A DNA stretch of 33,890 nt from Anaerolineae bacterium. Its GTDB lineage: Bacteria; Chloroflexota; Anaerolineae; B4-G1; SLSP01. Below, piece after piece: positions 14,643-18,939 of this stretch. The first letter of the stretch is position 1. The number at the start of each line of letters is the position of its first letter. Location of the stretch: positions 1 through 33,890 of the forward strand of contig JALXBP010000146.1 in NCBI GenBank assembly GCA_026991395.1. Reading direction: 5' to 3'. The notes below the pieces were generated by a model. The model was not told the origin of the DNA. It ran no database searches and was given only the letters and a program-made list of their open reading frames with translations. A program made the translations under genes and the position numbers.

Positions 14643-15278
14643 CTACCGCCACCAGCGGCTGTAGCGCTGGAGATGGGAGATGTCGTTCATCAGCGTAACC
14701 TGCAGCAGTTTGCCCGTGTCGGTGATGATGTTCACAGCGCAGTTGCGCTGGGCGAGTTTCCAGAAGGCGTTGTTGTCCAGGCCGAGCACGTCGAGCAGGA
14801 GGGCGCGGTTGACGACGGCGTGGCCGACGGCGACGATCCATTGGCCGCGGTGCTGTTCCAGCCAGCGGTGGAGGCCCTCGTGGACGCGGGCACGCACATC
14901 GGCCAGCGATTCGCCGCCGGGGATGACGACGTCGCCCGGACAGCATTCCCACTTGCGCAGTTCCTCCGGCCAGAGCCGGATGACCTCATCGATCGTCTTG
15001 CCCTGCCAATCGCCGAAGTTCATATCCAGCAGCGCCTCATCGGTGATGACGGGGAGGTCGAACTGGCGGGCGATGGCCTGGGCCGTCTCCTGCGCCCGTC
15101 CCATCGGGCTGCTGTAGACCGCCTCGACCGACCAGGAGGCGGCGATGCGGCGGGCCGTTGCCTCGGCCTGTCGCCGCCCGAAGGCGTCGAGCGGAATCTC
15201 CTTGCGACCGCGGAAGTGCGGGACTTTGTTCCACGCCGTGCGTCCGTGGCGGACGAGGATGATGTGGGTCGAATTCAT
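14643..15278 (-). CDS. histidine phosphatase family protein, CobC-like
   Basis: A 211-residue phosphatase with [10 protein letters not shown] (H11 phospho-acceptor), [27 protein letters not shown] and [12 protein letters not shown], the motif order found in CobC (alpha-ribazole phosphatase), GpmB and related enzymes. The GDWQGKT and PGGES segments make it closer to CobC-type members than the second phosphatase of this run. It lies 26 bases upstream of the B12-binding mutase gene, so dephosphorylation of a cobamide precursor is plausible but unproven. The ATG at 15278 forms an ATGA overlap with the zinc-ribbon gene and has AAAGGAGC upstream. An in-frame extension exists further upstream, but it lies inside the zinc-ribbon gene and looks non-coding. 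Confidence 0.85.
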
Positions 15279-15883
15279 CGTTGTCGTGCTCCTTTCAGTA
15301 GTGCGCCGCACTGGGTGCAGCGTTCGTTTTCCGGATCGTTGAGGAAGCCGCAGCGAGGGCAGGCGATCGGCTGTACCTCGACCAGCGGGGCCTGGCAGGC
15401 GGAGCAGGTGAGCCGTCCGACGGGATTGGGTGTGCCGCAGTAGGGGCAGATGACGTGGGAGAGCGTCGCCTTCCCCGCCGAGCCGTGGAGACGGCAGTAG
15501 CTTTCCACCGCCGCCCACAGTTCGTCGTGCAGGCGGAATTTGCGCAGGTTTCGGGCGACATCATCCAGTTCGGTAAGCAGCGTTATCGGCCTGAGGAGGG
15601 CCTTCAGCCCCGTCTTCGCCAGATCGGCGCCTACGCCCAGGAGATGCTCCTCGCTCATCGTGACGACGATCCCCGTCGGGGTGGGGGTGATGCGCAGCGT
15701 CAGCGTGAGCACCGGGTCGTCCGTCTCCACGCGGGGCGTCCACACCTGGACGGTCGCCCCGCCGTCGCGCAGCTTGACCCAGCGCGACCGCGTCGTTCCG
15801 CCGTCGAACTGGAGTGCCAGCGCTTCGGCCATCGCCAGCGGGTCGATCTCGCCGTGATAGGCTCGTTGTTCTACCTTTGCCAT
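15275..15883 (-). CDS. double zinc-ribbon protein of unknown function
   Basis: A 202-residue cytosolic protein. Residues 1-135 or so form an alpha/beta domain I do not recognise. The C-terminal 65 residues hold two zinc ribbons: CPYCGT with CSAC, and CPRCGF with CTQC, eight cysteines in all. Such double ribbons usually mediate protein or nucleic-acid contacts. CAAAGGAGC lies 6 bases before the ATG. The upstream MFS frame runs 323 bases into this gene in another frame, which is unusual (see the MFS entry). The shared operon suggests an accessory or regulatory job, but nothing in the sequence fixes it. Confidence 0.75.
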   Translation of the reverse strand: MAKVEQRAYHGEIDPLAMAEALALQFDGGTTRSRWVKLRDGGATVQVWTPRVETDDPVLTLTLRITPTPTGIVVTMSEEHLLGVGADLAKTGLKALLRPITLLTELDDVARNLRKFRLHDELWAAVESYCRLHGSAGKATLSHVICPYCGTPNPVGRLTCSACQAPLVEVQPIACPRCGFLNDPENERCTQCGALLKGARQR

Positions 15884-17189
15884 CTTCGCTCCTTTGTGAT
15901 GCTTTCTGTGGGGGTTTGCGGCCTCGATTGCCCTCGATGAGGAGGGCGAAGAGCAGGGCCGCGACCAGTCGCAGCGCTGCCGAGGTGAGGAAGAGCGTCC
16001 GGTAGCCCCTCACCTGCGCCAGCCATCCCCCCATCGCCGCGCCGCCCGCCATCCCCAGCCCCGCCAGCGCCTGGTAGAAGGCGACCAGCGAGGCCCGATG
16101 ATCCGCCCGCGTCCGTTCCAGCAGGTAGTTGAAGGCGGCGAGGTTGTACCCGGCCCAGACGAAGCCGGAGAAGATCTGGAGCAGGTAGGCCTGCCACGGA
16201 GCGCGGATGAATCCCCACAGTGCCGGAACGAGGGGGATGAAGAGGCCCGTTCCGCGCTGGACCCATCCGGCCCCCAGCCGGTCGTTCAGCGGCCCGAAGA
16301 AGCGCTGCCCCGGCACGGCGGCGAGCAGGCCGACCGCGCTGACCATCCCCAGCACCGAGGCGGTCGCTCCGACTTCCTCCACCAGGTAGATGAGGAAGAA
16401 GGGGCCGGCCACCATCACCGTGAAGTTCCACAGCGCGCCCACGGCGGCAAAGAGGAGGAAGGGGCGGTCGAGGGCGTGCCACCACCGCCGCTTCCCCGCG
16501 CTGCCGGAGGGGAGGGGCGAGGGCGGTTCGTCCACCTGCGCCAGGAAGAAAGCGGCTCCGAAGCCCAGCAGCGCCGCCGTCCCCAAGGCCGCCTGGTAGC
16601 CGAGCGGCTCGCCGAGGTGGGCGCTCCACCGTCCGACGGCGAGGAGGACGGCGAAGGCCCCCAGTCCCATCACGATGTTGCGGGTGCTGAAGTAGCGTCC
16701 GCGCCAGCGCATGGGCACCAGCTTGCCCAGGAAGGCTGTCCAGGCCGGTGTAACCAGGTTGACGAGGAAGGCCCGTGCCGCCGCGATCCCGATCCCTACG
16801 CCGACCAGGCGCACGCTCAGCGGCACGGGTATCCAGGGGAGGAGGATGAGGAGCAGGAGGAGCGCCCGTGCCGCGACCATCGGCCAGAGGATCAGCCCCT
16901 TGTAGCGCCGTCGCCGTGCGGCCAGATAGCCGCCGGGGATCATCGCCGCGGGCATCATCAGATTGCTCAGCGAACTCAAGGTGCCGATCTCCGCCCGCCC
17001 CGCGCCCAAGGCGAGGAGGTAGACGGAGAGATAGGTATTCACCAACGTGTTGCTCGCGTTGGCGAAGAGACCGCTGCCCATCAGTCGGCGCAGATTGCGG
17101 CGGCTGTTGGGCGGCAGGTGGAGGCTCCACCGTCCCCCGGCAGCGAGGAGGGCCAGGCGCTCGCCGATTCGCGACCCTTTCGGCCTCAT
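15561..17189 (-). CDS. MFS transporter with run-on C-terminus (natural end probably near 15871)
   Basis: Residues 1 to about 430 form a 12-helix major facilitator with an N-terminal segment reading SGLFANASNTLVNTYLSVYL, GGYLAARRRR after helix 2 and FFLIYLVEEVGA at the start of the second half. The literal frame then continues through KPPQKASQRSEDGKG into about 107 codons that overlap the zinc-ribbon gene and have Arg/Gly/Pro/Ala-rich composition typical of an antisense or out-of-frame shadow. One extra base in the C5 run at 15910-15914 (minus-strand C) would move the frame to a TAG at 15871-15873, giving an ordinary 13-base overlap. So the coding end is doubtful. The ATG overlaps the stop of the upstream PII-like gene (ATGA). 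The substrate is unknown. Confidence 0.75.
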   Translation of the reverse strand: MRPKGSRIGERLALLAAGGRWSLHLPPNSRRNLRRLMGSGLFANASNTLVNTYLSVYLLALGAGRAEIGTLSSLSNLMMPAAMIPGGYLAARRRRYKGLILWPMVAARALLLLLILLPWIPVPLSVRLVGVGIGIAAARAFLVNLVTPAWTAFLGKLVPMRWRGRYFSTRNIVMGLGAFAVLLAVGRWSAHLGEPLGYQAALGTAALLGFGAAFFLAQVDEPPSPLPSGSAGKRRWWHALDRPFLLFAAVGALWNFTVMVAGPFFLIYLVEEVGATASVLGMVSAVGLLAAVPGQRFFGPLNDRLGAGWVQRGTGLFIPLVPALWGFIRAPWQAYLLQIFSGFVWAGYNLAAFNYLLERTRADHRASLVAFYQALAGLGMAGGAAMGGWLAQVRGYRTLFLTSAALRLVAALLFALLIEGNRGRKPPQKASQRSEDGKGRTTSLSRRDRPAGDGRSAGTPVRRRNDAVALGQAARRRGDRPGVDAPRGDGRPGAHADAAHHPHPDGDRRHDERGASPGRRRRSGEDGAEGPPQADNAAYRTG

Positions 17190-17452
17190 CCAACCTGGAC
17201 GAAACGCTCGGCAGGGAGTACGAAGAGCGTCGCCTTGTGCTCGCCCGCGGCGGGCGGGGCGCAGGTGGCCTCGATGGCCTCGATGACGGCCTGGACCTCA
17301 TCCTGCTCGACGCCGATGAGCAGCGTAACGTTGCCGCGCCGCAGGAAGCCGCCCGTGCTGGCGATGCGCGTTACGCGGAAGCCGAGTTCGACCAGACGGT
17401 CGCTGACCGCGACGGCGTCGTCGTCCCGCACGATGACCACGAGCAGTTTCAT
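17186..17452 (-). CDS. PII-like protein, c-di-AMP receptor (PstA/DarA) family, short form
   Basis: An 88-residue small trimeric-type signalling protein. It carries STGGFLRRGNVTLLIGV (from about residue 32), the diagnostic motif of PstA/DarA c-di-AMP receptors, and the terminal strand LFVLPAERF. Compared with the usual length near 109, the long loop and the GGATVF strand entrance are missing and replaced by a short APPAAGEHK stretch. Only half of the known binding pocket therefore remains. The gene lies 10 bases after the longer paralogue with GAGGAGGG upstream, and it overlaps the MFS start. It could sense c-di-AMP or another nucleotide and control the coupled transporter. The family call is firm; the ligand is inferred. 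Confidence 0.82.
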   Translation of the reverse strand: MKLLVVIVRDDDAVAVSDRLVELGFRVTRIASTGGFLRRGNVTLLIGVEQDEVQAVIEAIEATCAPPAAGEHKATLFVLPAERFVQVG

Positions 17453-17462
17453 CCGTCCCTCC

Positions 17463-17795
17463 TCATCCGATCTGTACGAAACGTTCTACCGGCAGGATGA
17501 AGACCGTCGCTCCGCCGACGCTCACCTCCATCATCATCGGCGCGGTGGGCGCGAAGACGTTGCCCGCGCGCAGGGAGATGTATCGCCGCCGCCGCGGGCA
17601 CCGCTCTTCCACGAGGTGCAGGAAGCGCTCCACCTGCTGCTGCGGCAGGCCGACGATGAGCGTAACCATCGCTTCGTGGAAGAAGCCGCCGACGGCATCG
17701 ATGATCGTCGCGCGGAACCCTGCGTCGCGCAGGGCGTCGAGCAGCGCCCGTGTCTGCGAGCCGTCCACGATGATGATGGCCATTCGATCGATCAT
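17463..17795 (-). CDS. PII-like protein, c-di-AMP receptor (PstA/DarA) family, full-length divergent form
   Basis: A 110-residue paralogue of the next gene, with the expected family length. The C-terminal half keeps MMMEVSVGGATVFILPVERF, the loop-and-strand signature of PstA, but the N-terminal ligand motif is degenerate: AVGGFFHEAMVTL replaces the usual TGGFLRxGNTT. The start was set at the ATG preceded by GGAGG (MIDRMAIII). A longer frame begins at 17828, but its ATG overlaps the predicted -10 box and so would not be in the transcript. It is first in the minus-strand operon. Losing the motif that its partner keeps suggests the pair may form hetero-oligomers. Confidence 0.8.
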   Translation of the reverse strand: MIDRMAIIIVDGSQTRALLDALRDAGFRATIIDAVGGFFHEAMVTLIVGLPQQQVERFLHLVEERCPRRRRYISLRAGNVFAPTAPMMMEVSVGGATVFILPVERFVQIG

Positions 17796-17826: not shown

Positions 17827-17854
17827 ATTATAATCTAACCCTTGGATTAGTCAT
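17827..17854 (-). promoter_or_regulatory. promoter of the PII-like/MFS/B12 operon
   Basis: On the minus strand, ATGACT, a 16-base spacer, then a perfect TATAAT (17832 down to 17827). Transcription should begin near 17820, about 25 bases before the chosen start codon. Confidence 0.65.
17835..17850. promoter_or_regulatory. imperfect palindrome between -35 and -10, possible operator
   Basis: CTAACCC-TT-GGATTAG, seven-base arms with one mismatch, fills the spacer of the minus-strand promoter and lies in the divergent region ahead of the ACR3/BASS-like gene. The position fits a repressor site that controls one or both directions. Confidence 0.4.
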
Positions 17855-17916
17855 TTCCGCGCGGGTGTCCGGATACTCCGACCGCCCGCGGGGTGCTCGA
17901 AGGGAGGCGAGGACAG

Positions 17917-18939
17917 GTGGCGGGACTTTTGCTACACATCAAGAAGCGGCTCTATCTCTACGTGGCGCTGGACTTCGTGCTGGCCTTGTGGGTGGGGACG
18001 CACGTCGATCTGCAGTCGATCAACATCAAGCCAATCAGCCTCCTGGCCGTTTTCCTGATGCTCTATCCGATGCTGACGGGCATGGTCGTCGAGAAGGTCA
18101 AGCGGGCCGGACGCAACTACAGGCTGATCGCGCTGACGCTGACCTTCGCCTTCGTCGTGGCCTCCATCACCGCCTACGTCGTCTCGCGCCTGCTCTTCGC
18201 GGACTATCCGGAGTTGGCGTTAGGGATCATCCTCGTGGGCGCTATCCCTTGCTCGAATATGCTCATCGGCTGGAGCGGCATCGCCGACGCCAGCGTCGAG
18301 GATGCGCTGGTCATCGCTGTCATCGGGTTGCTGCTGATCCCGCTCCTGTCCCCGCTCATCGTGCGCATCAGCGGGGGGCCTTTGCTGCCTATCGATACGA
18401 CGCGGCTCATCCTCAACCTCCTGCTCTACATCCTCGTGCCGCTCATCTTAGGGTATTTCACGCGGCGGGCGATCATTCGTCGGCGGGGTATGGCCTACTT
18501 TATGGAGATCAAGCGCTATTTCCCCGGCCTGTCGGCGTTGGGCATTCTGCTCATCGTCTTCTTCTCCGTCGCCAAGGTCAGTGGCCGCGTGCTCCAGCAT
18601 CCGGTGGTCTTTTTCCTCGTTGCCGCCGGACTCTTCCTCTACTACCTCATCCAGACCGCCCTGGCCGTTGCCGCAGCCCGGTTCTTTCACCTCGACTACG
18701 CGCAGGGGATGATCCTGATTTTGGGCGCGACGGCCAGTTCGCAGGCGATCTCCCTCGCCCTGGCGGCGACGATGTTCGGCAGCATGACCGTTTTCGCCCT
18801 CTCCTTCAAGCCCATCCTCCAGGTGGCCTACATCATGCTGCTGATCTACGGGTTGGGGCCGTACCTGCGGCGCTTCCTCGACGGACCGCCGCATCCGGCG
18901 GGCGGCGCCGAGGCCCCGCGGAAGGGGATGGAGCTATGA
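17917..18939 (+). CDS. ACR3/BASS-superfamily membrane transporter
   Basis: A 340-residue protein with about ten membrane helices. The stretch LGIILVGAIPCSNMLIGWS matches the ACR3 arsenite-efflux segment that holds the essential cysteine, and a second re-entrant region reads ATASSQAISLALAATMFG, where ACR3 proteins have a similar helix-break but with an Asn-Phe-Glu-Leu motif. The architecture is therefore that of the bile acid/arsenite superfamily, while arsenite as substrate is uncertain because the second motif differs and no arsR or arsC is nearby. The GTG at 17917 was chosen because AGGGAGG lies 9 bases upstream. An in-frame GTG at 17893 has no such site. It is coupled to trmI by ATGA and divergent from the PII-like operon. 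Confidence 0.7.
   Translation: MAGLLLHIKKRLYLYVALDFVLALWVGTHVDLQSINIKPISLLAVFLMLYPMLTGMVVEKVKRAGRNYRLIALTLTFAFVVASITAYVVSRLLFADYPELALGIILVGAIPCSNMLIGWSGIADASVEDALVIAVIGLLLIPLLSPLIVRISGGPLLPIDTTRLILNLLLYILVPLILGYFTRRAIIRRRGMAYFMEIKRYFPGLSALGILLIVFFSVAKVSGRVLQHPVVFFLVAAGLFLYYLIQTALAVAAARFFHLDYAQGMILILGATASSQAISLALAATMFGSMTVFALSFKPILQVAYIMLLIYGLGPYLRRFLDGPPHPAGGAEAPRKGMEL

Follow-up and report, generated by a model that had tools for sequence, protein, structure and literature searches.

The structures of PstA and DarA were solved in 2014. PstA is a homotrimer in which the c-di-AMP contacts span two neighbouring subunits, R26, T28, G47 and Q108 on one and F36, L37, N41 and F99 on the other (PMC4316997; residue numbers here follow S. 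aureus PstA/DarA throughout). The N41A replacement makes binding about 26-fold weaker (Kd 9.6 vs. 0.37 µM), the T28A and GGFL-AAAA variants never saturate with c-di-AMP, and PstA Δ71-87 shows normal c-di-AMP binding in lysates (PMC4316997). Ligand binding shifts the ensemble of a loop thought to bind partners, and these partners were still only presumed in 2025 (PMC12435418), while DarA was still called a protein of unknown function in 2021 (PMC7900238). Among the transport proteins under c-di-AMP control is the cation/proton antiporter CpaA (PMC4316997).

The window, that is, the whole stretch of 33,890 nucleotides analysed here, contains two adjacent, intact minus-strand genes of PF06153 ('Cyclic-di-AMP receptor', the PstA/DarA family, with a Pfam cut-off of 27 bits), which we call L (long) and S (short). 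Beyond them, no PF06153 gene was found in the window's genome. The features of the locus are as follows.

17463 to 17795, minus strand: L, long PII-like protein, 110 aa, ATG at 17795 (PF06153, 78 bits)
17649 to 17714, minus strand: ligand-site stretch of L (PstA 26-47), with R26, T28, GGF and G47 kept (alignment)
17520 to 17588, minus strand: B' loop of L, presumed output loop, about 25 residues (alignment to PstA/DarA)
17186 to 17452, minus strand: S, short PII-like protein, 88 aa (PF06153, 84 bits; AlphaFold2 pLDDT 91.5)
17312 to 17377, minus strand: ligand-site stretch of S, with R26, T28, GGFL, G40, N41, T43 and G47 all kept (alignment)
17213 to 17233, minus strand: C-terminal strand ATLFVLP of S, with the F99 equivalent (alignment, AlphaFold2)
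15561 to 17189, minus strand: MFS transporter ORF, inner-membrane carrier, next gene conserved in the window's clade (PF07690, 98 bits)
15275 to 15883, minus strand: double zinc-ribbon protein, 202 aa, farther downstream, kept in 14 loci (PF12773)
17827 to 17854, minus strand: sigma-70-like promoter, ATGACT-16-TATAAT, just upstream of L (10/12 matches)

The tandem PII-like pair proposed by a first-pass annotation of this DNA was thus borne out, and the co-translation that it assumed was supported. The gap from L to S is 10 nt, a GGAGG ribosome site lies directly ahead of the S ATG, and the S stop overlaps the ATG of the MFS gene (ATGA). The promoter upstream of L contains a perfect TATAAT and was the only one found, against 0.2 expected in shuffles. 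At Rfam gathering thresholds, no match to a c-di-AMP or other riboswitch was found near the operon. The MFS frame runs about 320 bases into the zinc-ribbon gene in another frame (window 15561-15883); because the MFS ORF is shorter in relatives, its stop in the window may be shifted. A divergent SBF/ACR3-like symporter gene (window 17893-18939, plus strand) starts about 100 bases from L, and it was not found as a conserved neighbour of the pairs.

Both proteins are clear members of PF06153 but fall below the 140-bit cut-off of the DarA equivalog (NCBIfam NF058593; 78.1 bits for S and 75.3 for L). Against classical PII (GlnB/GlnK, PF00543, cut-off 25 bits), S scored 21 bits and L gave no match, and the TGxxGDGKI B-loop of classical PII is absent from both translations. 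The PII-like fold was judged for S by AlphaFold2 and structure matching and for L by profile only. The S model has a complete beta-alpha-beta-beta-alpha-beta core, including a strand at residues 74-80, and aligns over its full length with residues 1-110 of PstA (4rwx; Z 13.5). Foldseek searches with single domains recovered only PstA/PII.

We found that S keeps the full published contact set, including F99 and Q108 near its C-terminal end (KATLFVLPAERFVQ), where K-A-T-L-F-V-L-P...F-V-Q aligns to PstA A96-F99 and Q108. Its B' loop is reduced to 5 residues versus 25-27, and two glycines before the strand are also gone. The state produced in PstA Δ71-87 is therefore the natural state of S, and the published mutants fit its anatomy. 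In L, L37 is replaced by F, the conserved G40 by A and N41 by M, leaving the contact set incomplete; F99, Q108, the B' loop and the GGATVF strand are kept. The three motifs read by the first-pass annotation, STGGFLRRGN in S and AVGGFFHEAM and EVSVGGATVF in L, are all present, but its reading of them stood only in part. S does lack the long loop; the last strand, which was thought missing as well, is there, and a truncated S gene was ruled out by the alignment, the AlphaFold2 model and the PstA structure match. The ligand motif of L is indeed lost at G40 and N41, but GGF, T28 and R26 are still present. Moreover, the window pair does not form the two half-sites that had been suggested: the ligand set of S is complete, and the loop of L lies outside the binding site, as PstA without its loop binds normally (PMC4316997). 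As judged from the aligned residues, the window pair is split into a pocket without an output loop (S) and an output loop with a broken pocket (L).

Co-conservation of the two genes, which the annotation had proposed as a check, proved consistent. Of 48 genomes in the order to which the window's genome belongs, about 31 have L and then S, and pairs are also found elsewhere across the class; in a collection-wide scan they appeared in Thermoflexus sp., Thermoflexales and Anaerolineaceae, and in two isolates, Anaerolinea thermolimosa IMO-1 and Longilinea arvoryzae KOME-1. Because the order and the division of residues are seen again in about 95 pairs, counted after removal of shared contigs, the pattern is not due to chance. 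Between close relatives, the dN/dS of L and S is 0.01-0.06, with intact frames, indicating strong purifying selection. In a tree that left out most trait columns, nearly all S proteins grouped together (103 rows, support 96), and the two subclades within this group mirror the two L clades (support 97 for 41 rows, support 87 for 62 rows); built on just 77 columns, the tree resolves inner branching weakly. The window belongs to clade I; its sister is clade II (Anaerolineaceae and others). Some loci depart from the simple pair. At L238:5258-5530, an additional short copy that is more diverged comes straight after the pair (L-S-S), and L189, L201, L207 and L197 have two pairs in tandem or near each other, of which the first L is antiporter-fused (partial at the contig start in L197) and the second is free.

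The two clades differ in which ligand residues were lost. In the single-copy-type Chloroflexota homologues, T28, GGFL and N41 are kept in 33 of 33, while R26 and Q108 vary. In clade I (34 pairs), S retains T28 in 34 and N41 in 31, and L retains T28, G47 and Q108 in all 34 but N41 in none. In clade II (61 pairs), S keeps T28 in 61 and R26 in 59 but N41 in only 18, and L keeps N41 in 54 but T28 in 30 and R26 in 2, so that L has been eroded on opposite sides in the two clades. Since the PstA contacts come from two neighbouring subunits, the S:L interface of clade II carries T28 together with N41, which is the case in 54/61 pairs, compared with 18/61 for S:S and 24/61 for L:L. Within clade II, the pair tree requires no fewer than 10 changes of N41 in S and no fewer than 13 of T28 in L, and the loss is thus recurrent. 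There are exceptions: N41 is missing from both partners in 6 of 61 pairs, and in 24 of 61 the L protein still has T28 as well as N41. The idea of complementary half-sites, not supported for the window itself, therefore finds a place in clade II, where ligand residues are divided between the partners across 61 pairs, if imperfectly; on residue patterns, it suits clade II better than the window.

Transporters accompany some of the pairs in both clades. In about 12 clade II loci, L is fused as a C-terminal domain to a CPA1 Na+/H+ antiporter (PF00999 + PF06153, 633-702 aa) and S is usually the next gene; NCBIfam TIGR00831 was above cut-off in the one fusion examined. The fusions listed below are all CPA1-type antiporters with a C-terminal CdAMP_rec domain.

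L133:2300-4321, L134:2248-4353, L189:2401-4383
L201:3020-4975, L207:2424-4373, L217:3077-4990
L231:3095-4993, L234:3071-4993, L238:2978-4993
L276:1495-3312, minus strand

In other clade II pairs, a CPA2, KefB/C-like antiporter is encoded upstream; counting fused and upstream genes together, an antiporter accompanies 18 of 62 pairs in clade II and none of 33 in clade I. The transporter link of clade I thus rests on the MFS neighbour, which was found in 17 of 58 loci, all with a window-type L, and was absent elsewhere; the MFS and zinc-ribbon genes often follow clade I pairs. Other genes often found beside clade II pairs encode an MGH1-like glycoside hydrolase, DUF4013 membrane proteins and a secreted-looking protein with no family assignment. 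L and S may also be joined to each other: in families f33, f16 and f41, a long-loop domain is followed by a short-loop domain in one ORF of 222-242 aa, and at L137 and L146 a Na+/Ca2+ exchanger (CaCA) gene lies downstream of such an ORF. Because most of these ORFs fall outside the L and S clades, the L-S fusions may be independent and parallel. An AlphaFold2 model of a natural L-S fusion (pLDDT 72.9, pTM 0.71) has an inter-domain geometry that is not readable. The antiporter fusions are the strongest hint to the target of the PstA-type receptor family.

The absence of a diadenylate cyclase (DAC) was named by the first-pass annotation as refuting its reading, and it was not encountered. The window's genome encodes a CdaA-type DAC (138.6 bits) adjoining a YbbR/CdaR-like ORF, and DACs are present in 46/48 genomes of the order and in 22/22 further genomes with pairs or fusions; a missing cyclase is thereby ruled out. 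Loci in which either gene stands alone with its degenerate motif would likewise have counted against that reading, and no clear case was seen. The apparently lone S at L214, which has lost N41, is not solitary, since an antiporter-L fusion lies about 6.5 kb away on the same contig; the other apparently lone S, at L196, is about 700 bases away from the start of its contig, and its genome gave a single PF06153 match. A lone window-type L with V in place of N41 occurs at L163 (G158:C216:26432-26740), and the same genome also has a complete pair. A third PF06153 group consists of single genes (L123, L158-L162, L164, L166 and L170; e.g., L123:3055-3465, minus strand) in which SRGGMLRQAQ replaces TGGFLxxGN, Q replaces N41, and the protein ends in a conserved FVWDLERxExY. 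At G030:C1:1632346-1633191, the C-terminal half of a full CdAMP_rec gene (profile 63-108) is repeated after it as three partial copies, spaced regularly at 174 bases.

On balance, we consider it probable that L and S together form a PstA/DarA-like, hetero-oligomeric receptor for c-di-AMP that controls a membrane transporter; the mixed trimer, its ligand, the transporter as target and the sign of regulation are what we infer. Sensing and output would be divided between two duplicated subunits. S would act as the sensor, with a whole ligand pocket and no B' loop, and L as the output subunit, which keeps the loop and could not respond alone because its pocket is crippled. In a mixed trimer, c-di-AMP at an S-containing interface would reposition the loop of L, which would pass the signal to the transporter encoded alongside. 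For the window's clade, the MFS carrier is the probable target; the target in relatives may be the L-fused CPA1 Na+/H+ antiporter, a CPA2 K+/H+-type antiporter or a Na+/Ca2+ exchanger. That the hetero-oligomer is 'obligate', as was first suggested, we would put less strongly, and homotrimers of S are possible because S has every residue for a homotypic site. An obligate S-L heterotrimer that holds c-di-AMP between paralogues each keeping one side of the pocket, and whose loop subunit is or once was part of a cation/proton antiporter, is a tentative proposal, and we lean slightly away from it.

Two separate homotrimers, with S as a c-di-AMP receptor or buffer without a B' loop and L as a c-di-AMP-independent PII-like regulator, would account for the complete ligand set of S, for the binding by loop-less PstA, itself a homotrimer (PMC4316997), and for an L that keeps GGF and T28 under purifying selection. 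We nevertheless regard this arrangement as unlikely, considering that the pairing and order of L and S are near-invariant, that L-S fusions exist, that the loss of ligand residues in clade II is specific to each half, and that L is found in trans where S stands alone. A changed ligand, in which L or the pair binds another nucleotide or metabolite and the replacements at G40-N41 are adaptive rather than losses, is still less probable. The replacements do follow family lines (L/M in f1; T in f2, f3 and f47; K/R at G40 in clade II) instead of being random, and L has T28, G47 and Q108 throughout the window's clade, but S keeps its c-di-AMP set and nearly every pair-bearing genome tested has a diadenylate cyclase. 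Finally, decay of L into a functionless duplicate, to which the loss of an N41 invariant in single-copy homologues might point, is ruled out for practical purposes by its dN/dS of 0.01-0.06, its frame, intact throughout, and its antiporter fusion in about 12 loci.

The hetero-oligomeric receptor that we favour would have sensing on one polypeptide and output on another, and could serve as a natural experiment in the way PII-like loops relay ligand binding. With a PstA-type domain naturally fused to a Na+/H+ antiporter and its partner subunit encoded by the next gene, there is a concrete target to test, and the cultured pair-bearing strains A. thermolimosa IMO-1 and L. arvoryzae KOME-1 make the system accessible. 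If the obligate S-L heterotrimer were true, ion transporters would be the direct output of PstA/DarA-type proteins.

In the open-access literature, outside which most subscription journals fall, we found no description of a tandem DarA or of a PII-antiporter fusion; the parts belong to a known family, but neither the division of labour nor the antiporter fusion was described in the papers covered. The pair resembles PstA of S. aureus and L. monocytogenes and DarA of B. subtilis in its PF06153 fold and the CdaA in the genome, in the T' loop motif TGGFLxxGN and ligand residues of S, and in the long B' loop and GGATVF strand of L. It differs from them in having two co-transcribed paralogues instead of one gene, an S without a B' loop and an L without G40-N41, scores far under the DarA equivalog cut-off for both, and a linkage or fusion to transporters. 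As in GlnK-AmtB and GlnB/GlnK, a trimeric PII protein is proposed here to act through a loop on a membrane transporter, and as in GlnB/GlnK, two PII paralogues co-exist. Mixed trimers of GlnB and GlnK are known. Unlike GlnB/GlnK, the pair has another ligand-site motif, and its paralogues are fixed as a tandem, with loop and pocket split between them. The inferred action of c-di-AMP on K+/Na+ transport is shared with CpaA, KtrA and KdpD, which have RCK/USP domains, whereas here a PII-like PstA domain is attached and a second subunit is free.
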